Assembly: GCA_022925895.1 (NCBI GenBank)
Contig: JAKSYS010000356.1
Span: forward strand, 1-62,236
Source: Fragilaria crotonensis
Taxonomy: Eukaryota; Bacillariophyta; Fragilariophyceae; Fragilariales; Fragilariaceae
Direction: 5' to 3'
DNA: 62,236 nucleotides
Part shown: positions 11,742-53,590 of the stretch, piece by piece
Position numbering within the stretch: the stretch's first letter is position 1
How the letters are laid out: each line of letters begins with the position of its first letter
Program-made: the position numbers and the translations under genes
The notes under the pieces: model-generated
The model's database searches: none
What the model was told of the DNA's origin: nothing
What the model saw: the letters and a program-made list of their open reading frames with translations, nothing else

Positions 11742-12311
11742 TTAACAACCACGTCCCAACATTTCGCACATGTCTTCTCGCTTCTGTTTCTTATCACGCT
11801 TGGCCATTTCTTCTTGCTTTTCAAGAGCAATTTTGGTATTCTCCACGAATGATCGTGATCTCAAATCAGTCCCCGCTTCGGGATTGATATCCGATCGAAT
11901 GTCTGCTGTATATGCCGAGGATGGAATGCCTGCAGATGATGCGGCTGATGTTGAACCACCACCACCACCACCACCACCACCACCACGAGACTTTCGTTGT
12001 AGTTCCAGTTTGCGAGCCACCCGGGCAGCCATTTCGTCTTCGGTCAGGACACCACCTTCGTCTGACGCCAAGACCATTTGTGGAACGGTCGCAGTGGTCA
12101 TCAACATGACACCACTTGTCGCCATGAAACGACCCAAGGCAGTCACCATGGCATCACGACGAGATAGTTGATGTTCAGATTGTTGATGCACTTGCTGTTG
12201 TGGAGGAGTCTTGGACATGATGACTCCAGGTATTTGGAAGGCAACACAACACTGAGCGATGCAGACCAACGAAAGGAACATAACGAGTGGGGAGGCAGCG
12301 GTATACTTCAT
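11742..12311 (-). CDS. Predicted thylakoid-lumen protein of unknown function
   Basis: 189 residues. I chose the Met at 12311 because it starts a clean signal peptide (hydrophobic core VMFLSLVCIAQCCVA) with Phe just after the probable cut site (CVA-FQIP), the diatom plastid-entry pattern. Next come RRDAMVTALG, a second hydrophobic stretch and VLASDEGG, which resemble a twin-Arg lumen signal with an A-x-A type cut. The mature part would be about 100 residues: a conserved-looking LTEDEMAARVARKLELQRK, a ten-Gly tract, then a charged C-terminus ending CEMLGRGC with two Cys. I do not recognise a named family. The lumen location is inferred from the presequence only. Confidence 0.75.
   Translation of the reverse strand: MKYTAASPLVMFLSLVCIAQCCVAFQIPGVIMSKTPPQQQVHQQSEHQLSRRDAMVTALGRFMATSGVMLMTTATVPQMVLASDEGGVLTEDEMAARVARKLELQRKSRGGGGGGGGGGSTSAASSAGIPSSAYTADIRSDINPEAGTDLRSRSFVENTKIALEKQEEMAKRDKKQKREDMCEMLGRGC
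11956..11986. repeat. (CCA)n microsatellite inside the lumen-protein gene
   Basis: About ten CCA units in frame on the minus strand encode the poly-Gly tract between the two conserved parts of the predicted lumen protein. Length variation here would change the linker without shifting the frame. Confidence 0.9.
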
Positions 12312-12932
12312 CGTACTTCTGATCGTCTTGCAAATAGCAGATGCGGAGCGTTGCTTGACTTGCTCTTCAGGCTGTTGACAGAATATGTGGAAAACATCGT
12401 TTTCAAGTTGAGAAGTCAAATTGTCGTGCGTGTTGGCCACATCATGTGGCATTTGATGACAGCACATGCCGTCATTACAGTGCAATCATGCAGCCGTGAT
12501 GAGAGCACAGATATCGTACTGGTACGACATAGCTGGTACAAGTACTTGTATGTTAGCGCAGTAATGTCGTGCTGAGGTCCTCTGCGTACGTGGTACCAGG
12601 TACGTACCTGTACCAGGAACTGGTACATACATTCCCCTATTGGCTATTGGTATGTACTGTATACGGTACAGTAGCAGGAGTACTGGCGTAAGATAACTAC
12701 GTCGACTAAAATTTACTCCAAAGTACTACTATGACATAGTAGTACCTGGTACTGTACTTCACACATAAAAGATATCGCGCAAAAATCACGCATTCGGTGC
12801 TGAATCATTACAGGGATCATCAAGTTTTATGATGGGACAATCTAACAACTCGGCAAGTAAAGTACTCGGAGTACTTCACTTGAACGTAGCCACCCACCAC
12901 ACTCTATCCAAACGCCAATCACAGAGGCTACT

Positions 12933-13889
12933 TTATTCTTTCGTCGCAACCACCCTTTGATACAGTCCGCCAAAGTATGTGTTCTTTTGAATCGACTTGA
13001 TGGATTCTGGCATCCACGAGGACAGATCGCGCATCCATAGATCTTTTGCAAACGGCTCGTAGATTCGGTACATGGTCGACATGATCCCCTGCCAAAGCAT
13101 GGATGTGGGTTTATGGTAATCAATAAGAACCAGTTTACCCCCGTTCGGTTTGAGGACTCGACACGCTTCGGCAAGAGCTTGTTGACGAACGTCGTCGGGA
13201 GTTTCGTGCAAGAGGAAGAATAACAGCACTTGATCGAAACTTTCGTCTTGAAAGTCACTCAGGTCATTGGCGTTGTAACAGGAGAGAGCGACTTGGTCGA
13301 GCTTGGTACTGTTACTGCGATGCAACTTACGATTGAGATTTTCCAGCTGGGCAGGAACGACATCGATGACATCCAAGGATGACTCTGGTCCGAGCCGATC
13401 TACCACAGCTTCGGTTAGGTTGGCATAGACGCAAGACATTTGCAGCGTCTTGCCTGGAATCAACCGATCCTCAGATTGCAAAGCGTCGACTGCCGCATCG
13501 CGAAGCTTGGAGAAGTTCCCCCAGAGAACGATATCGACTAGGAACTGGTGATCAAGGGTTCGGATCATGGTAGGACTGATATAAGCCCACCAGTAATAGT
13601 TCCGAAGATAGTCTGGAATTGGTGGATGATTTGCCAGGGATAAGGTAGGTTTCTGATGCACATCCGGGTAGTGGTACTGGTGGGCGATGCTGGAAAACCT
13701 TGTGACCGAGCTAGGCTTCTGCAAAGATTGCTGTGACGCTGCATTTGTGAGGACTTTAACTTCTGGGTGAGGCTTGTGGGTCGATGAAGGATTGCTTAGA
13801 GCGGCGGTCGAGGCCGCACGCAACAGATCAAATGCATGCCTCTGCAGTCGGGTCGCAAGGATAGACGAAGTCTTCGCTGAGGCAAGCAT
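12933..13889 (-). CDS. rquA: RquA-like rhodoquinone biosynthesis enzyme, mitochondrial
   Basis: RquA is a methyltransferase-fold enzyme that uses S-adenosylmethionine to turn ubiquinone into rhodoquinone, an electron carrier for fumarate reduction at low oxygen. From the Met at 13889 the protein has 318 residues. The first ~95 look like a mitochondrial presequence (MLASAKTSSILATRLQRHAF, Arg/Ser/Ala-rich, few acids). The core starts IPDYLRNYYWWAY and continues LVDIVLWGNFSKLRDAA. In place of the Gly-rich SAM loop it reads LQMSCVYANLTE, the RquA-type form and not the UbiE/COQ5 form. LLFFLLHETPDDVRQQAL and YFGGLYQRVVATKE close the domain. An in-frame Met 48 nt upstream is less likely as the start. 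The call rests on recalled family patterns, not a search. Confidence 0.82.
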   Translation of the reverse strand: MLASAKTSSILATRLQRHAFDLLRAASTAALSNPSSTHKPHPEVKVLTNAASQQSLQKPSSVTRFSSIAHQYHYPDVHQKPTLSLANHPPIPDYLRNYYWWAYISPTMIRTLDHQFLVDIVLWGNFSKLRDAAVDALQSEDRLIPGKTLQMSCVYANLTEAVVDRLGPESSLDVIDVVPAQLENLNRKLHRSNSTKLDQVALSCYNANDLSDFQDESFDQVLLFFLLHETPDDVRQQALAEACRVLKPNGGKLVLIDYHKPTSMLWQGIMSTMYRIYEPFAKDLWMRDLSSWMPESIKSIQKNTYFGGLYQRVVATKE

Positions 13890-19386: not shown

Positions 19387-21529
19387 ATGGCAGTGATTCG
19401 TCGAGGATCTCCTCGGTTAGACGTCCAGCAGCCGTTACAAGCTGTAGACGTTGACGAGGAGAACACGTTCACACCCGTCGCGCTGTTTTCACCACCAATC
19501 GCTTCTCCAAGACGACCTCAGAGTAACCTGCTCAAATTTTGCGTCTATGCGGCATTGATCTCGTTAGCTGGCATTGTCTTTTCGCTTTCGTCCGGCATTG
19601 CTGCATCGGGCCACAAGGACACACTTCGGAGCGCTGACACTCCCATCAAAGTCGCAAGGAAATGTAAGTATGATGGCGTCCCGTTCCAGTTGGAGTTTTG
19701 CGTCGCTAACTCTTGCCTTTGCTCGTTGATCTAGGTTCCATTTACATGGCTCCAACATCGTTAAAGGGTTCGGATACCATGGGGATTTACACTACGCGAG
19801 ATATGAAAAATGGCGAGCACATCCTCACAGCCCCAGACGGGCCATCTATTACACTGCTTACTGATATCTTTCGATCAAAAACTTCTAAATTCCCTGCATC
19901 GAATTGGATCTACTTGTGGGGCGAGTATGCCTGGGGTCGCGGTAAGGGGGTTCCGGACCACATCTCCTACGAGGCCTATCGAATTATGGAGTTTCAGATT
20001 ACGACGGGTGCCTTGCCCAATCATCACTGTCTTCTGGACTCCATCTCGTACGAATTCCCGTCGCCGTCGTATGACGATTCTCGATCGGATCATCGACACA
20101 GCCCGGGTACGGGTGCCTATTCCTACAATAAGGGCCGAGATTTCTATGTGGATCGGGCAGTGAAAGGTGGAGAAGAGCTCTTTTTGAACTATGGCAAGTG
20201 CACCCACGAACGAAGCCCAGAATGGGCCAAGGGCACACCAATGCCGTCGGACTATGCGGTTGCAATGGAGATCATTTCAAGTGCGTGGAAAAACCTGACC
20301 AAGGACGGCGGTAAGGATAAAAAGATCGACTTGCCCGCTAATACGGATCCAATGGTGGCAATGATCGTACCCAAATCGACAAGGGAACTCAAGGAGCTCA
20401 TGTCCAAAAACTACCAACCGGACGAACTCACGCGAGAATTGGCGCTTCGAACGGGAATCAATCGCCGAACTCCGGAATGGATTCGCAGCCATGGAAAGTG
20501 TCTCGAGCACATGATACAAGGCCCATCTTATCTTCCTCATGCCGGCCTCGGTGGCATTGCGCAACACTACATCGCCAAAAATGAAGTGATTGTGCCGGCT
20601 CCGTTGATTCACATTATGGATGAGGACGTTCTGTCCATTTATGATGAGGATGGCGCCAAGATTGGTGATCAAGTGGTTTTGAATTACTGCTTCGGGCACC
20701 GAGAAAGCACATTGCTCTTATGTCCCAATACCAACGCCATATTGATCAATCATTGTGTAAGGCGATCCAAGAATTGTAGTCCCAATGCTGTGATGCGATG
20801 GTCATATGGTTGGGATCCCACGTCCGATGAATGGCGCCAAGGAAGCCTGAAGGAGCTTTCCCGAAAATCCTTTCGCGGGTTGAGCATGGAGATTGTTGCG
20901 ACTCGTAACATTGTGCCCGGCGAGGAGGTGCTGATGGACTACGGGGATGAATGGGATGAAGCCTGGAAGAAGCACGTGGCAACTTGGAAACCGAAGGAGC
21001 CAGTCTTGACTGCAAAGGAAGCCAATGACATGCGCTCGCCTCCTTCGTCTATGCTATCAGGTGATTTACGCAGTGGTAATTGGACGAATTCGCATCTCTT
21101 TGCTGCTTGTCTGTATTGGACGACAGACTTGGACACGCATCGCACTTGGGACAAGAGCGATCCTAACTGGACCAATCTCACGGACTCCGAAATTCTACGC
21201 AAGTATGCGGATGATGGTTCAATGTATTCCGGGAGCTATGAGGATCAAAACAGTGGCGCCTATTGGCCTTGCGTTGTAATCCGCGAGGAGCCGCACGGCA
21301 AATCTCCGAGCCGACTTTTACGGTACGAATACTTCAAATTCCTTTTGATGAGGACACAACCTGGACGAAGAACAGCCTTCCGCGATTCTTGACAAACTAC
21401 TCGCGTTCCTCAATTCAATTCTTTGTGAGGAGGGGTATGGGAGATCAGTACTTGCCGGGAGTGTTCCGACACAAGATTGGCATTCCTGATGACGTGTTTC
21501 CGGCGCACTGGAAGAATAAGGCCACATAG
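19387..21529 (+). CDS. Membrane-anchored double-SET-domain protein (frameshift near C-terminus)
   Basis: SET domains transfer methyl groups from SAM to lysines. Exon 1 (19387-19663) encodes a cytosol-facing tail and one membrane segment (FCVYAALISLAGIVFSL). A 71-nt intron (19664-19734) follows, then the long second exon. The first SET-like half spans roughly residues 105-250 (MGIYTTRDMKNGEHI to ELFLNYGKC). The second spans about 370-505 with HAGLGGIAQHYIAKNE, NYCFGHREST, ILINHC, SMEIVATRNI and LMDYGDEWDEAWKKHV. Near 21305 the conserved reading changes frame: the original frame stops at 21392, whereas the other frame continues to FRHKIGIPDDVFPAHWKN at 21529, matching the end of the paralogue at 53590. 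A one-base loss is the simplest explanation. Substrate unknown. Confidence 0.8.
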
Positions 21530-41874: not shown

Positions 41875-44230
41875 TTGTCTGGGAAATGCACCCCAAGTGG
41901 TATTGTTGTGTGGGTTTTCTCGGAGGCGAGAAAATTAATACTGTATGAGATAATACTTGTATGCAACCATGACGCATGTAGGGTCATAATTTCGTATCCA
42001 AATTTGCTTCGGATGCAACCTGGCATCCTTCGTAGAATCGTAGAATGTGTACCAGAAAAGAACAACATGATTATTGATATCGAATGCATGATTTCTTGTT
42101 ATTTTTTGACACCATTCAAGACACGGATCACCATGAGAGGTCAGAAGGTTTACAAGCAAATCTTGGACAGTTTGATGTCGAGCGTCCATCGGTTGGGTCC
42201 AGGGGAGCAATATGACTATGGGCGAGTGTATACTGACAACGAGAAGAGGCAGGTTACCTCAGAAGAACTGATGCGATGGTTGAACATAAGAACTTTTGGA
42301 GTTCCTGACCCCGGGCCACAGTTGGCAATTTGACCCTTGGTACGTGCTAACACTGTTGCCTTTTGGAAAAAAGCTATTTCATTCTATATGCCAGATCATT
42401 TGCATGGTTGGAGAACAGGTTCAAATGATGGAAATCCTACGAAGTGTGCTGAAGTGAACAATTTTGTTAAGTATCTAAGGAAGCTGGAAGCGAGGAAACA
42501 AGGAGCAGAATCGAAGACGCGGCGTCCAATGGAAGAGAGGGAGTTTCGACGTTTGCATGAAGTTTTCAAGACATTTGGTGGTTCTCATAGTTCAGGGATT
42601 TGGAAGCTTGGAATGCCGGCGCTTATCAACTTTCAGTTTCACATGATTGCCAGAATTGATGATACTACACAGGTTGTGATGGACCACATTCGTGTTCACG
42701 ACAATTTTGAGAATGCATTGAAAACAAGGTTAAACTGGAGTAAGAATGTACAGGATGAAAGGGATGCACCGTGGCAGATTGTGCTTGGGAGTATGAACCC
42801 AATTTTCTGCGTATTCATCAGTTTGGGTTTGTGGCTTGAATTCAACTTGAGATCAAATGCGACGGCGATGGCCTCGCCTTACGTTTTTGCATTCTCTGAT
42901 GATATCACAGTACCTGGTGGCGGGCTCAAGGCCAAGGAAAATGCACAGAATATATTCGGTCAGAAAGTATTGCGAATGGAGGAGTTCCGGTCCGGAGGTC
43001 TTCTTGGAAGTCACTCTATTCGCAAGTTCGCTTCCACACATGTTCGTCGATGCGGAATCTCCAAGGACAACAAGGACACGAGAGGCCGTTGGAAAGGGAG
43101 GGGACGGGTTTCGGATCGATACGACGATGTCGAACTGCCCTATCCAGATTGCAAGGTGGCGGAGAAACTGTGTATGGGCGGAGCTTGCTACTACTTGATC
43201 AATAATTCAATTTGCAACTCGAATGTCATGACAACATTTATTCTAACGAAAGTCGTTCCTAACATTCGGCTACTACGACTTCCGGATTCAACAGCAATTG
43301 TGCTGGGTAAGGCTGTGCTTTGGCTTGTGTTTTTGAGTGTTGCTTCTGATTTCATTTCAACAGGAGACCGAGATTGAGTGAAGAGGGAATTGTCGGAAAC
43401 GGGAATTGTTATTGCCGAAGGTCAGAATCCGATTTCGAAGGTGCCAGTTTTAGTGAGCGGCAATCAAGGTACAGTCTTCATTGATGAGATTCCAACAACA
43501 AGTATCGAAGGTGATGCTGTGGGAGCGGAGAATGAAAATGGAGAACCTGCAGGCGAGACAATCAAGCATGCGAAGACTGAACCAGAGACTTCTACAGAAC
43601 AATCAAGCGAGTGGCGACCAACTTCAAAACTGGATGCTTCAGTTGCAAAGCGGTTTTTTGAGTCTTCGACGCGAGAACATTGAAATTCGAAACAATATTG
43701 CTGGAATGCTGCAAGCGATGGAACGAGGATTCCACATAATCAATGGAAATGTCAGGAGGGCTGCACTGCAGCCAGCGCAACGTGTGCCAAGACCACCGGG
43801 GGGAGCAGCAGCAACGGCAGCTACTGCAGCTGCAATTGCTGCTGCAGCTGCTGGTGCTGACGATCAGGGTGCCGAGGCTCTCGAACGTGCTTTGCTCCGG
43901 CCTGCCCTCGCGATGACGAGTCCCGCAACCCTCATGCCGAATCCACGAAGTCTTTACGACTTGTGGAATGAGTATCTACACGGGGTCGGGGGGAGAAAGC
44001 CTGCAAGGCTTTTCTCCGAAACCGAGCGAGGGCAGGTGAAGTACAAGTACTCGAGACGGAAGGTGATCTGGGATGTGATTCGCAACCTTGTGAGCTTGGG
44101 ACACAGTTTGCAACGGGCCATAGACATGATCTACAATGTCTATGGCCCTCAAACAAGTGTGACGGAGATTATTAATAGACTCCGGAAAGACAAAAACAAT
44201 GGGACTCTCAATCCCAATCTTCAAATTTAG
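41875..44230 (+). pseudogene. Crypton tyrosine recombinase with GCR1_C DNA-binding domain
   Basis: Cryptons are DNA transposons moved by a tyrosine recombinase. The reading runs LMRWLNIRTFGVPDPG, a TGA at 42331, then VRANTVAFWKKAISFYMP in the same frame. The catalytic domain shows FQFHMIARIDDT (likely first Arg), GSHSIRKFASTHVRR (HxxR box) and SDRYDDVELPYPD (candidate nucleophile Tyr). A 57-nt GT-AG intron (43307-43363) is possible, but a TGA at 43375 remains. Near 43500-43640 the conserved reading shifts frame into QSGFLSLRRENIEIRN, an Ala-rich linker and a GCR1_C domain: SLYDLWNEYLHGVGGRKPA, KYKYSRRKVIWDVI and RLRKDKNNGTLNPNL. Two stops and one shift make this copy inactive as written. Confidence 0.82.
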
Positions 44231-44705: not shown

Positions 44706-47700
44706 TCAATACATAATGTGCCGACAAAGTGCACGTCGCCGATCCGAGGTCAAGACTTTCGTAAACAGATCAGCAAGATTTGTCATTCCATCCTCCTTAC
44801 CGACTCGAAGAATTTTCGCCGCAACTGCCTCACGAATAACGTGGTAATTTATGGCATTGTGCTTCTTGGCCAACATCGACTCTGGGATTGTTGTATTCTT
44901 CACGACGCCGTTATTATCACAAAAAAACATTCGCTGGACCATCGATTGGGACTCCAAACATGCGGAGTTTATACCGCAAAGCCACGATCATATCCTTCGC
45001 CGTTCGTAAAGCAACGAATTCACTACCGAAGTTGGAAGATTCGACGGTATTTTGACGTTTGGAAAACCAGAGGATCGGAGCATTCTGATCGTAAACAAGG
45101 ATCCCCGTATGCGATCGTCGAGTAATAACATTTCCGGCATGATTGGCATCCACGAAACATGAGATACATACACTCTTTCCTTTTGGCTCGGGCATGTTCG
45201 GCGGTAGCTCTTCGCTCACGTCCCCGTAAAAATTGCTCCAGTCTGCATCAGATCGGAATACGCGTTCATCGATAATCGGGGTCTTCGGATCAAAAACAAT
45301 CCGCGCGCCATTTTCATGTTTCTTAAGGTATGCGAATATGTGGTAAACTGCTTAAAGGTGTCGCTTCCGTGGGATTGCCTGATGCTGTGAGATTTGTGAG
45401 ACTTCGACAAAAATGTCAATGCGGCCCAGTTCGATTGCCCATCGCAATATCCCAATGAGTTGTAAGAATCGCGCTGCCAGCTCGTCGTTCAATTCGGGGG
45501 TAATGTCCAATTCGGGTTTATAGCCGCTCGGAAAAGGATTCCGTGCAGTCGTTTTCAACGTCGCCGTTGAGTCGTCTTCCACAATGAGAGCCTCAACAAC
45601 CTTCACGGCATTCTTGACATACGTTTTGCTTCCCATAGACCATTCGAGCTTACCGTTAGGCAATTGTACCTTTTCCATGTTCGCGCACAGATAAATTTCT
45701 GGCTCTTTACCACTTTCTGGTTTCAAGCTTACCCAATTCGTTCATAGTTACCTTTGGGTCTTTCGCGAATATCAAAATGTCATCAACGTAAACGAGGACC
45801 ATGTTATAATGAGTATCAGCACTCCGGATCCACCCATTCGGATCAGCCTTGGTAGACGTAAAATTCAAGTCACGCAGTGTTGCTGCTAAATCCGCTCTCC
45901 ACGCGGCACCGGACGACTTCAACCCGTATAACGCGCGCGTAACGATCAATACTTTACCCTGGTCTGCCCCAGTTTCAAGGCCGCCCTCAAACCAAATCTT
46001 TTCACGACAAGCTGCATTTAAATAAGCGTTCGTAACATCGCCGGCCAAAACATCAAGATCGTTGAGCCTGGCAATCAAAAATGCCAATCTCACGCTGTCT
46101 TGTGAGACGACACTTGAATATGTAAGCGAGCCCGGAGTATCCGTCGTATGTCCACCTGCGACGAACCGTGCCTTGCGCGTGAAATCCATTTTTATATCAA
46201 AAATAATATGGCAACGTATCTCCTGAAATCCAATCAGACCTGGTTCTTTCCCGGTCCGTGCCTGCGTAGGCGTCACTCCATCCATCGGCTTCCATGCAAC
46301 TTTGACTTTGCTCATTGCCTTACCTAATGCCTTGCGCCAGTAGTCAGTACCAGTCTCTTCGTCAATCGCAAGCGCCTCTTCCACGGACTTGGGCAGGCGT
46401 ATACCAAACTTGTGTGTCGTTCTCCAATATCTCTTCACTTTTGCCACAATCCGATTCCTTTTCCGCAAGACAGTGTGAACCCACCAGTTAAATGCCGGCT
46501 CATGAGCAATATTGTTAGTCACAGCATATTCAGCTATTTGTACCGGATACGAATCTTTTATGTCCTTCAACGGTATCCAATCGGATGACCCATCCTTCCA
46601 TGTGACCAGGAGGGACCAACCGCGTGTGGTAACTTTCGGGATCCGGTTGCCATTCCTGCTTGTCACGAAACCGTTCGCTACAGAAATAGCAGAATTGTCC
46701 AGTGATCTCCTGTAGTAATTGAAATTGTCGCCCTTCCGAATCAACTTGTGCGTACATACACTCTGCAATTACGTTGGCGAAGTAGTTCTCGGTAGTGCCG
46801 TCCGTAAATTCAACGACATACCCGAGTATCAAAGAGGGGTTAGTATGGGCACGACCAATTGGCTCACCAGAGGTTCCTTTGGCACGTTTAACGACATGCC
46901 CTTTTCGTTCACTTCCAGTTCCGACATCAAAAATTAATTCGGCATTCAAATACTTATCCGTGATCTCATTGTCCAAGTCGTCGGCCTCCATCGCGTCGGG
47001 CACATTCATGTCGTCGTAATCTTTGTCATTAGTATAGGAAACGCCAATGTTGGTGTATTCGTCCTGTATGTAAAAGTCGTTTGGCTCATGTATTATGAAA
47101 TCTCGATCTGACAAACGTTCCTCAACGGCTTGATCGAAACGTTCAATTTCCAATTTCGTATCCTCATTAACATAGTCGTCCCGGACGACGTGTTGTACTG
47201 TCGTACGAGCGATTATCTTACCGGATTCGAGGAGGAGCCAATAACAGAGGTCGCTGCCGACCCGATGAGCAACTGCGAGCCATCGCGCAAGACGTCGACC
47301 GGAGCCATCGATCTCAATTTTCTTCTGATCGTAAAACCAAACCCTGTCGTAGAATTCGAAATCCAACCATTCGGAGATGTCCGGAGTTTCACCGGTTACC
47401 ATTTCTAAACCCGTCCTCTGATGGGAGCCACGCGGGATTCTGTTGAGAATGTTAGATTCATAAACGAGACCATAATCCCACAATCGAGGGGGAACCTTGC
47501 GTTTGAGCATTCGATTCCGCCAGCGCTTTTTCAACTCGCCGATCTCGCGTTCGGCGGCATAATTTTGGTTCGATCGTCCCACCTCTGAGCGTCTCAGCCG
47601 AATCTTTAGTAGATTTACCTCCTTCATGAAGTCCGTTCTCGGTCCAACGATTTCAGGTGCGCCATCAGAAAGCAACGAGTCGGGAATACCGACATCATCC

Positions 47701-48770
47701 GCAAATTCGGTCAACACGTGAGCAACTTTGGATTTTGATTCCATGGGGTGTACAGTTGTAAATTGCCCATTTGTAACGACCTGCGCGCATACATTACCTT
47801 GGATAGATATTACCTTAGAAAACAGAGTGTCCGTAAACCAGTTGCCGTTAAGGCGTCGACGATTCAGATACAGGTGGTGATCGACACGATACCGCCTATG
47901 TAACGGATGCACTGCAGTGCGAATTCCACGTTGCGTCGTAACTTGTAGTGTCTTTTTCGCCGTGTCAATCCCAATGTTCCATTTGCGGCTCAGGGTCTCG
48001 GCGGTGATACTCGAATGCCGTTTGCTTGAAAATGTTGCGCCTATACCATGTACTGTCCCCGTAGGCGCGTCATTCAGGACTGTGATCGCCTGTGTGTAGA
48101 GAGCAGAAAGACAACGGGGTCAAGTGCACACGAGATAGTGGATAATAGCGTTGCGGACTCCGACAAAACGGTACGTTGTATGGCAGAGGAAACGGTTGCA
48201 GCGTGACGACGGGCGTGTGAGAGTGCGATGCAAGTATGTGCATGTCAGCCGGGTTCCAGATGTTAGAGGTGAGTTCGATAAGAGCAAGATTCTCTAACTC
48301 CCAATCAGTCGGCACTCGGGATTCGAAAATCAAATTTGGTCCTGAAAGGGTGAGAGGGATGAAGAAGTGATCAAGTGTGATTCCAAGGTCTCGATTGGGG
48401 TCCCAGGGGTCATCAAACACCGTGACCATTTGCGCGAATCTGGTGAGGATTAATCAGAGAGCAATGGAGGTCGTTTCCAAACCCAAGGACCTGATCGGCA
48501 ACGAGAACAACAGAGTCGCCGTTCGCTGGGCATGTGTAAGTGGTGGCACATCGCGCGATCGGAATATCCGGTTTGGGAGAGTAATCAGAGGAAAAAGGGG
48601 CAACAGTGCAATATTCGCCGGTGAGTTCGAGCAAACGCCAATTAGGTCCGGCACAAATGGTGTCCGCATGATTATCGATTTCATTGGTGCCAAGTTGCCC
48701 TGGGGTTGTCGGTTGGGAATATAATTGGTGGGTGCCAGCACGTCGCGCGCTCGAGATTACAGGCATGGCG
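44706..48770 (-). pseudogene. Copia pol (PR-INT-RT-RH), frameshifted
   Basis: Protease-like DNHADTICAGPNW lies near 48670-48700, a DxHADT form in place of the usual DSG or DTG. Integrase spans about 47830-47350 (VVTNGQFTTVHPMESKSKV, LLSDGAPEIVGP, NYAAEREIGELKKRWRNRM, WLDFEFYDRVWF). Reverse transcriptase runs 46300-45740 with ALYGLKSSGAAWRADL and the catalytic MVLVYVDDILIF. RNase H has VDANHAGNVITRRSHTG and ESSNFGSEFVALR near 45190-45020, and the end ADLFTKVL near 44750. Several frame changes separate these parts. Confidence 0.85.
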
Positions 48771-49060: not shown

Positions 49061-50377
49061 CTAGACGTTCCCATTCGTCGGCAGAAAAGTTGCGGTGCAG
49101 GTCTGAGATGTCCACATTATTCGCAAATGTACGGCGATACTCACCACGTCCACGTCCGCTTCCACGATTGTCACGACCACGGCCATTATGCCGACCACTC
49201 GCTGTCCCGAGCGTCCGCCTGTCCGGGCACGACCGCGTCCACCAGTGGAGTCCGTGGCACTAACGTAGCGTCGCTTGTTACCGGCGGAGTTTCGGTTTGC
49301 GTAATCCAGTTGTGCAGATGCATGGAGGTTCGCAACAAGACCGGACATAAAATTCACAGCACCGTCAAAATCCGATCGATAGCTCTGAAAGATGTTGATC
49401 TTGGCGGAGGTAATACTTGTATCGGATGAACGAATACCCCGCATCAAACAATCAACCTGCTGTTGCTTACCGGTTAATGCCTCACTTTTGTCCTTACTCA
49501 AGATATAGAAATTCTCCTTCAACTTCGTAATGTAACGTTCGAACGGGAATACCTTTTCGTCTTTGTAGTGAAGGCGAGAGATTTCTTCCTTGGCCCTTTC
49601 CACCCGCTTGTTCAACTCACCTGTACCGTCATAATGCGCCACCAAGGCAAGCCAAGCCTGCCTGCCATTGGAAGTTCTGTAATATGATTGAATCCAAGTC
49701 CAAGCGTCGGTTTTGATGCAAGCTGACTTCAACAAGGTATACACAAGTTTGTTGTCCCGCTAAAAGTTCTCACCGGTAAGGGGAATTTGGTAACGTCTCT
49801 GTTCATCGTCATTCAGCGGTTTGTAATCGTCATCAATTTCGGGTCTAACAACATAGTCAATCGGGAATTTTGCTGCGCCTATCGTGGCGCTCAGCTTGTT
49901 GACAAAGGCAATCTGCCAATTGTCCCAAGCGAAGTCTGTTTGGCACTTCCCAGGGTCGATTAAATCAACATCAATCTTACCATAGTTATACTCGGACTCC
50001 TTCCGGTCCATGGCACGCGCCATTTCTTCCACAGTCCACCTGTCAGGGTCAATCTCGATCCCGCGGTTGGTGTTATCCTTCACCCAGTATACCAGCGCCT
50101 GCAGCCTCTTGTTGATCTGCATAGTACCAAGGATGACCCTGCCAGTAGCAACACTGGATCTTGCAGCCATACGTTTAGCCATTTCCGTAACATCCGTGTC
50201 ACCGCTCATGGAACCAAACGCTTCAATCGTATCAAGGCCTTCAATGTTTAAAAACGTTAAACGGTTTGCATTGTTCGCGATACCGCAAATTTGAAGTACA
50301 CGGTGAACCGGGTTCTCTTCAGCAACATGGACTTCGGGAATCGGTGGGGGAAACTCCGGTTCAGGTTCAGCGTCCAT
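49061..50377 (-). pseudogene. Copia gag
   Basis: The frame from 50377 encodes an acidic Pro-rich start (MDAEPEPEFPPPIPEVHV) and a helical domain with WTVEEMARAMDRKESEYNYG and DFAWDNWQIAFVNKLSATI. A stop at 49760 separates it from the next frame (49744-49061) with SYYRTSNGRQAWLALVAHYDG and the Gly/Arg-rich GGRGRARTGGRSGQ. This is the diatom Copia gag layout; I see no clear zinc knuckle. The first part may be intact, the second continues in a shifted frame. Confidence 0.75.
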
Positions 50378-51635: not shown

Positions 51636-53590
51636 ATGCTCGAGTTGCAACGCCACCTCGCGCTCCTGCTTGCGCTGCTGTCCCACGTTCACAGTTCTGA
51701 TTGGAGGTGGAGCCTCCACTGTAGCGCCACCGATGGAAATTGTGCATCAGCAAAAAATGAGGAAATTCTTGGTCGAGCGACAAATGATAGTAGCAACGAT
51801 CCAACATCATGCGGAATTTGGTTTGCCAAAAGCACTATTCCGAATTCAGGACTGGGGATGTACGCAGGACGAAGCTTTAATGAGGGAGAGGATATGATGG
51901 CATCAGGAGATATTTTGATCCCTATCGTTGACTTGGAAATGCATCAGGGAGATGATTGGTTTTTTGTGTTGGACACGTATTCCTGGGGAATTCGAGGGCG
52001 CGAGAATGACGGCTTAAATGAAGTGCATTTTCTTTCTCCGGGCTTCGGAGCTGCGGCGAACAGCTTTCTAGACTTACATAATGTTGAAGAACTGAAGATC
52101 GATCACTCGCTTGTGGGGGTGCATCGTAGCAAGGATCCAGGAGCCGGTGCATTCACTCCCTATCATAATCGCAGATCCATTGCGAAAGTGCCCATACCGG
52201 CAGGCCAAGAACTATTCACGCATAGTAAGTTCGGGAGAATTTTTCTGATTGCTCTAATCGTAAAACGCAATCTGTGCTCTGAATCTCTCGACTCACATTC
52301 GGTCGCCTTGCGTTTTAGTCGGTGATTTCTGGTTCCATCAACGCGCGCATAACCTAGGCCCAATCCCGACCACTGGCGATCTCCCCAAGGCCAATGCTTT
52401 ATTAACAAAATGGGATACTTTGCGTCGACAACATGAGGGAAGGTATGATGCTGCTCTCAAGGATTTGTGGGAAACCTTTGTTTGGACGTCGCCGTACAGC
52501 GACACCTCCAGACAATTCTTCGCCTTGCCCAAGAATTGGGAGGAGACGGAGCAAGTCCTACAGATGGGTTTGGTCAATTTCCGCAAGCAGCAATCGACAC
52601 GCTCTCTTGAATGGCTTCAAGAGCATGGTATATGTGCTGACAATTTACGAGAGGGTGTCTCCGAGATTCCTCAGGCTGGACGCGGTGCATTTGCGACCAG
52701 GTTTCTGAAACGAGGGGCCATCGTCGCGCCCTTGCCACTCATTCATGTTCCGAGCCGCGAGCGGCTAGAGATGTTTCAACCCGACTTTTCAGTTGAAAAT
52801 GTTGTCAACAAGACCAAAGCTGTAGGGCAGCAGTTGCTCGTCAACTACTGCTTTGGACATCGGCATTCCACGATGCTGCTGTGTCCGTACGGCCTCCTGA
52901 CGGGTCTTATCAATCATGCTAGGACACCCAACGTGAAGTTACAATGGTCTGACTCCAGGCGAAGTTCACATGCTCCCGAATGGCTCAACAAGACCATCGA
53001 GGAATTCGCCAAACATAAGTTTGCTGTCTTGTCCATGGAGTTGGTGGCCCTCCGTGACATTGAGCCAGATGAGGAAGTCGTCCTGGATTATGGCGAGGAG
53101 TGGGAAGCAGCTTGGGACGCGCACGTTGCATCGTGGAGTCCAGTTGAAGGAGCAGCGTCGTATGTTTCATCGTCCGAACTCAACGAGGGCAACGAGACAA
53201 GGATACTCCGAGCCGATTATCAACAATTCTCAAAGCCATATCCAAAAACTGTGCATATCCGATTTGATTTGGCTTTCGCGAAAGAAAACTGGAAGGCAGA
53301 TTGGGAAAGTGGAGCACTTCTGAATCACACACTGGCATGGGATGCTGATGTGGCGCAGTGTACTGTTTTGAGTGTCCGCCGCGACAACGACGGCAACACT
53401 TTACAACACTGTGTACTGGACGGACGAACCGAGAAAGAGCGGGAAGGCCCGGGGAGTCCCTCGCGAGGCCTTCGTGTTCAGAGATAATCCGTACACGGCA
53501 GATTACCTTCAGCATAACGTATTTCGCCATGACATTCGCATACCAGATGAGATGTTCCCCGACGCATGGAAAAATCAGTTGACGCGGTAA
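51636..53590 (+). CDS. Secreted double-SET-domain protein (late frameshift)
   Basis: The first ATG is 51636, giving the signal peptide LELQRHLALLLALLSHVHSS. Exon 1 (51636-52224) carries a first SET-like half (GIWFAKSTIPNSGLGMYAGR, LMDLHNVEE-like LDLHNVEELKIDHSL, IPAGQELFTH). A 94-nt GTAAGT...TTTTAG intron (52225-52318) restores ELFTHIGDFWFHQR. Exon 2 has QAGRGAFATRFLKRGAIVAP, LLVNYCFGHRHSTMLLCP, LINHARTPN, SMELVALRDIEPDEEVVLDY and GEEWEAAWDAHVASW. Near 53401 it lacks two bases (CT) that the copy at 58530 has, so the frame ends at 53487, while the shifted frame continues the family end FRHDIRIPDEMFPDAWKNQ to 53590. The secretory location is odd for a lysine methyltransferase. Substrate unknown. 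Confidence 0.8.

Follow-up and report, generated by a model that had tools for sequence, protein, structure and literature searches.

The locus described here raises the question whether a photosynthetic alga carries in its own genome a gene for RquA, the enzyme which turns ubiquinone into rhodoquinone using SAM and Mn2+ (PMC9814641), and whether such an enzyme could serve anaerobic respiration in its mitochondria. The window, by which we mean the whole stretch of 62,236 nucleotides analysed from a Fragilaria crotonensis contig, contains on its minus strand a frame which starts with an ATG at 13889, ends with a TAA at its low end (12933) and runs through 318 codons with 0 internal stops. It is a single-exon genomic locus, the frame having no intron, and consists of the following parts.

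12933..13889, minus strand: rquA coding sequence, 318 aa, one unbroken frame with a TAA stop
13626..13889, minus strand: N-terminal extension, residues 1-88, a presumed mitochondrial presequence by physicochemical features only
12939..13619, minus strand: RquA domain, residues 91-317, aligned to NF038261 positions 1-218/218

The NCBIfam rhodoquin_RquA equivalog model NF038261 matched residues 91-317 with 240 bits against a cut-off of 175 (E 2.3e-71), and the model was covered over its full length. When the query was taken together with 49 bacterial relatives, all 50 sequences matched NF038261 at E <= 1e-20. The UbiE/MenG models listed gave the diatom protein 27-50 bits, against cut-offs of 158-420 (37 against 216, for example), and the UbiG models listed also stayed far under their own cut-offs. 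Pfam placed the protein above the family cut-off of Ubie_methyltran (48.6 bits) and also matched it to general methyltransferase families, while a sequence search of the PDB returned five distant methyltransferases, the best at E 1.3e-4. The profile search of the F. crotonensis genome (62,107,879 bases in 881 contigs) listed four RquA matches, among which only the gene at 12933-13889 was above the RquA cut-off, and no second copy above it was found in this search. In 14 control genomes the same search gave a match in 12 and none above the cut-off. RquA was also sought outside cellular chromosomes. The plasmid search yielded 10 records at 26-36% identity, none over 80% of the query, and the phage search two records at 28% identity, both sets containing general or MenG-type methyltransferases only; a scan of viral contigs with a 50-row alignment matched 179 stretches and gave 0 relatives.

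The residues which mark the family were then compared with those of 105 bacterial RquAs, bacterial sequences only, that remained after removal of duplicates and include two under the cut-off. A column was taken as strongly conserved when one residue occupied at least 90% of these 105 rows, which gave 34 columns. The features concerned are these.

13581..13595, minus strand: YWWAY, residues 99-103, conserved N-terminal RquA motif
13419..13448, minus strand: altered SAM motif I TLQMSCVYAN, residues 148-157, with the RquA signature Gln150 and Val154
13422..13424, minus strand: Ala156, where 105/105 bacterial RquAs compared have Gly
13362..13364, minus strand: Asp176, the position of R. rubrum Asp118 as mapped by motif and spacing
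13278..13292, minus strand: five-residue insert, residues 200-204, present in 0/105 bacterial RquAs
13272..13274, minus strand: Asn206, the position of R. rubrum Asp143 as mapped by spacing
12957..12977, minus strand: YFGGLYQ, residues 305-311, conserved C-terminal RquA motif

The diatom protein agreed at 32 of the 34 strongly conserved columns, Gln150 and Asp176 among them. In the published RquA signature the third residue of motif I is Gln and the seventh is Val (PMC7813818), and both are present as Gln150 and Val154; in the bacterial set the Gln occurs in 103 and the Val in 89 of the 105. Motif I of the diatom protein has no acidic residue. It also lacks the motif-I glycine at 156, a conserved column which lies outside the RquA definition as given in the published text available to us. 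Ala likewise occupies this position in the UbiE-family protein of the host. Of the two SAM-site aspartates the first is kept as Asp176 (Asp in 105/105), and the second position holds Asn206, as in 11 of the 105 bacteria; this column, with D in 92, N in 11 and S in 2, is less strict than the 34. In R. rubrum RquA the double mutant D118A/D143A, the only mutant of this pair which the source reports in the text available, made no rhodoquinone (PMC9814641). Furthermore, Leu265 stands where 98 of the 105 bacterial proteins have Pro. Our caution about activity is due mainly to these departures, namely Ala156, Leu265, Asn206 and the insert at 200-204.

Bacterial relatives were gathered by scanning the genomes of bacteria and archaea with an alignment of the query and two bait sequences, which gave 360 pattern matches and 236 relatives; the best 80 of these were kept and showed 40-49% best-segment identity to the diatom RquA. 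A family search was also made over 385 genomes belonging to the same class as a Rhodomicrobium genome, which we read as the alphaproteobacteria because the class was taken from that genome; 25 had a match at E <= 1e-30 and 23 were above the cut-off. The top alignment identity among the 105 bacterial RquAs was 51%, to the partial sequence L083. In a tree of 109 rows, rooted on a plasmid UbiE together with the COQ5-like protein of the host, the RquAs were set apart with an SH-aLRT of 99; its branches are long, and three sequences, namely the query, L115 and L130, a distant RquA-like protein, lay on the RquA side without a settled place. Placement inside COQ5/UbiE was thus tested by both profile scores and tree and was not found. 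A second tree, built from 55 rows with no outgroup, separated the query together with 36 bacterial RquAs (beta-, gamma- and magnetococcal, plus a few alphaproteobacterial) from 18 alphaproteobacterial ones with support of 100/100 over a branch length of 0.86. The query fell outside the 36 with 91/81, the 18 A-like rows and the query forming one side of that branch, and its own end branch was long (0.94). Taken together, the two branches put the query on the B side, yet not among the bacterial B rows sampled. In the text available, Stairs et al. 2018 list gammaproteobacteria and a group of diatoms under Group B but not under Group A (PMC5953543), and for this reason we read the larger side of the 55-row tree as Group B; we infer this label for the query's side from a tree which holds no named Group A anchor.

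Model, motif and tree together firmly identify the product of 12933-13889 as a member of the RquA family. The sequence-only reading had already named an RquA-type protein here; its coordinates were exact, the four peptides which it quoted are all present (residues 91-103, 117-133, 149-160 and 305-318), and the profile and tree comparison which it proposed between RquA and UbiE/COQ5 came out above the RquA cut-off and on the RquA side.

Three observations concern the bacterial sequences in their own right. An RquA in a MAG labelled Gemmatimonadetes (L068) sits among Ramlibacter/Burkholderiales rows in the tree, a recent transfer or misbinning. One alphaproteobacterial genome (G056) has two full-length RquA matches, L110 and L129, both above the cut-off. 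L130 (G002:C290), with 115 bits under the cut-off over profile positions 12-217, comes from a genome which also has a true RquA, and is possibly an uncharacterised sister family of RquA.

The host had been called a photosynthetic alga from the letters alone, and this is borne out, since silicon-transporter matches make it a diatom: the genome gave 19, of which 18 were above the cut-off, the best at 646 bits, and the 14 control genomes gave a match in one and none above the cut-off. The published assembly of F. crotonensis SAG 28.96 has 61.85 Mb of nuclear sequence in 879 contigs with a GC of 47.4% (PMC9476933). In the profile search, the ORFs near rquA included argininosuccinate lyase, a SET protein, a PTPLA-containing ORF, guanylate kinase and an HIR1/CAF1B-like propeller, among which the propeller, SET and PTPLA are eukaryotic families. 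The GC of rquA is 0.50 against 0.51-0.54 in three neighbouring ORFs, and its codon usage correlates with those three pooled neighbours at 0.83, the yardstick being 0.91 for argininosuccinate lyase, which is itself in the three-gene pool.

Elsewhere in the window, we noticed remains of a Copia-type retrotransposon at 45707-47912 and 49061-50377, both on the minus strand, with an RVT_2 reverse transcriptase match of 69 bits; the ORFs beside this match look integrase- and gag-like by eye and had no Pfam match where tested. On the plus strand, the end of an ORF at 42337-43377 looks tyrosine recombinase-like by eye, with no Pfam match, and adjoins an ORF with a GCR1_C domain (31.6 bits) at 43481-44230, a pair which may be a Crypton-type mobile element. 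Two SET-domain ORFs, at 19713-21392 and 52420-53487 (both plus), lie about 31 kb apart and appear paralogue-like by eye. The neighbour of rquA on the same strand, at 11742-12485 (minus), had no Pfam or NCBIfam match, and its leader resembles by eye a plastid signal followed by a twin-arginine signal for the thylakoid lumen.

Diatom plastid leaders are two-part. In the rquA product the first acidic residue is at 21, the only one among residues 1-30, which contain four basic residues. Segment 11-28 is amphipathic; its hydrophobic moment is 0.59, a value which 41 of 5000 shuffles made from residues 1-40 also reached. As the highest 15-residue Kyte-Doolittle mean in the first 60 residues was just 0.73, there is no signal-peptide-like core. 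These features fit a mitochondrial presequence rather than a two-part diatom plastid leader. Of the earlier description of ~95 residues resembling a mitochondrial presequence, the mitochondrion-like character is retained and the length is amended to about 90 before the RquA domain. Most tblastn alignments with bacterial RquAs exclude the leader; four of them (L030, L048, L050 and L081) begin at residues 45-50, and therefore part of the leader may have a bacterial counterpart.

We also looked in the host genome for the partners which a rhodoquinone chain would need. COQ3 was found with 191 bits (cut-off 103), a COQ5/MenG-like protein as a gene separate from rquA with 176.7 bits (cut-off 158), the complex I subunit NuoG/NDUFS1 with 485 bits (cut-off 470) and ETF-QO with 146 bits (cut-off 24). 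SDHA appeared as three exon-like pieces on contig C1 with 440, 419 and 48 bits, none of which alone reaches the whole-protein cut-off; a TAA, possibly at an intron edge, is read through in one of the matched stretches. Co-occurrence with complex II and ETF, as expected of a eukaryotic mitochondrial RquA, is seen here through the SDHA pieces and ETF-QO. The host thus probably contains what a rhodoquinone chain needs as substrates and partners, and with genes for COQ3, ETF-QO, SDHA and a subunit of complex I the pathway is feasible. No match to the pyruvate:ferredoxin oxidoreductase family was found in the host genome profile search. Of two Fe-hydrogenase-domain matches, one is strong, which by its look we take to be the cytosolic NAR1 type, and the second is a fragment covering 40 positions at 29 bits; together these results give little sign of a dedicated anaerobe.

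The host also has genes for soluble fumarate reductase-like enzymes of the flavocytochrome-c type. The two, L131 (about 77-79.5 kb) and L132 (about 113-115.6 kb), lie ~36 kb apart on contig C55; L131 is seen as two overlapping frames and carries a cytochrome b5 domain, and L132 scored 359 bits against a cut-off of 285. An enzyme of the L132 type could be an alternative fumarate sink, passing electrons to fumarate without rhodoquinone.

The explanation which we prefer, and as a whole consider probable, is that this is a nuclear gene of a photosynthetic diatom, laterally acquired and of Group B type, whose product would act as a mitochondrial rhodoquinone synthase and let complex II work as a fumarate reductase. 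The diatom RquA would enter the mitochondrion and there, with Mn2+ and with SAM as amino donor, convert ubiquinone to rhodoquinone, an activity we regard as likely. In dark or sediment hypoxia complex I would hand electrons to rhodoquinone, and complex II would reoxidise it while reducing fumarate to succinate, so that complex I could go on pumping protons without oxygen. That complex II is run as a fumarate reductase in dark anoxia is plausible from the gene content. For the more specific proposal, that a bloom-forming freshwater diatom makes rhodoquinone and reverses complex II in dark or sediment hypoxia with an RquA carrying Ala156 and Asn206, we would put the chances at slightly better than even.

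Two other readings would take the gene away from this explanation altogether, and both appear to us very improbable. If a COQ5/UbiE-type or other quinone C-methyltransferase had been mistaken for RquA, a Pfam Ubie_methyltran match such as that seen would be expected; this reading is opposed by UbiE/MenG scores far under their cut-offs with the RquA score above its own, by a motif I without an acidic residue and by the separate host COQ5/MenG-like gene, whose product is 18.5% identical to the diatom RquA, and it is contradicted by the tree, which places the query apart from UbiE/COQ5. Bacterial contamination of the assembly would agree with the intronless frame, with the nonaxenic state of the SAG 28.96 culture (PMC9476933) and with the fact that the relatives retrieved were all bacterial, but the same 62 kb stretch carries eukaryotic gene families, the product has a presequence-like N-terminal extension, the codon usage resembles that of the neighbours, and identity is at most 51% to any of the 105 bacterial RquAs.

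The remaining two accept the gene as RquA and differ on what the product does. The enzyme may descend from RquA with its activity lost or shifted in substrate or product, a change which Ala156 (against Gly in every bacterial row) and Asn206 (against Asp in 92 of 105), the insert absent from all 105 bacterial RquAs and the long end branch would mark. We think this unlikely: the frame is intact, nearly all conserved columns are kept, and Asn occurs at 206 in some bacteria and Ala at 156 in the host UbiE-family protein, so both letters exist in relatives. Alternatively, a genuine rhodoquinone synthase might supply mainly some other route, for example ETF-QO, and not fumarate reduction by complex II. 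ETF-QO is indeed present and the soluble fumarate reductase-like enzyme might fill the fumarate role, but the eukaryotic role described for rhodoquinone is that of serving complex II when it acts as fumarate reductase (PMC5953543), and an SDHA gene is present, which makes this quite unlikely.

A free-living diatom with this capacity had been thought notable, and the idea that it would be a first case is not supported. Stairs et al. 2018 reported rquA in 24 eukaryotes, the Group B diatom group among them, predicted mitochondrial signals for full-length eukaryotic RquAs with experimental support in Pygsuia, and described introns in those rquA genes with genomic records (PMC5953543); Euglena, which is photosynthetic, is a published rhodoquinone user with RquA. 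What is new in this locus is a genomic single-exon rquA with two SAM-site departures, Ala156 and Asn206, as read from the sequence. In the portion of the literature on RquA and rhodoquinone in diatoms available to us we found no measurement of rhodoquinone in a diatom, which does not prove that none exists, nor a paper linking Fragilaria with rhodoquinone. The locus gives a mapped genomic position to what is, in the literature available, a gene-based prediction in diatoms, and it does not alter the accepted view of rquA as a gene passed from bacteria to several lineages of protists. Diatoms survive dark anoxia through nitrate reduction (PMC3846789); if functional, this RquA would offer one possible survival route in the dark or in sediment beside that one, and would link anaerobic respiration based on rhodoquinone with a freshwater diatom that is widespread. 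If true, this would provide a photosynthetic model for anaerobic mitochondrial respiration, and the altered SAM site makes the activity of the enzyme worth testing.

Among known systems, COQ5/UbiE C-methyltransferases share with the diatom RquA membership of the class I SAM methyltransferase families by Pfam, and clearly differ from it in motif I, model scores and tree position. With Rhodospirillum rubrum RquA, compared through published residue numbers and text alone, it shares Gln and Val in motif I as well as the first Asp of the SAM site, whereas the second key Asp (143) is Asn in the diatom. The bacterial RquAs of Rhodoferax, Competibacteraceae, Rhodocyclales, Magnetococcales and others (L008-L087) are close to it by the best-segment identities and common columns given above, and differ in having Gly at 156 and no insert at 200-204; at residue 105 the diatom has Ser, in contrast to His in 80 of the 105 bacterial proteins. 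The diatom Group B RquA of Stairs et al. 2018 is likened to it by description, the diatoms being without species names in the main text available, and from this group the Fragilaria locus stands out as genomic, single-exon and freshwater. The two are alike in enzyme family, in algal phylum, in a Group-B-like position and in predicted mitochondrial targeting, which the features of the leader suggest for the Fragilaria protein.
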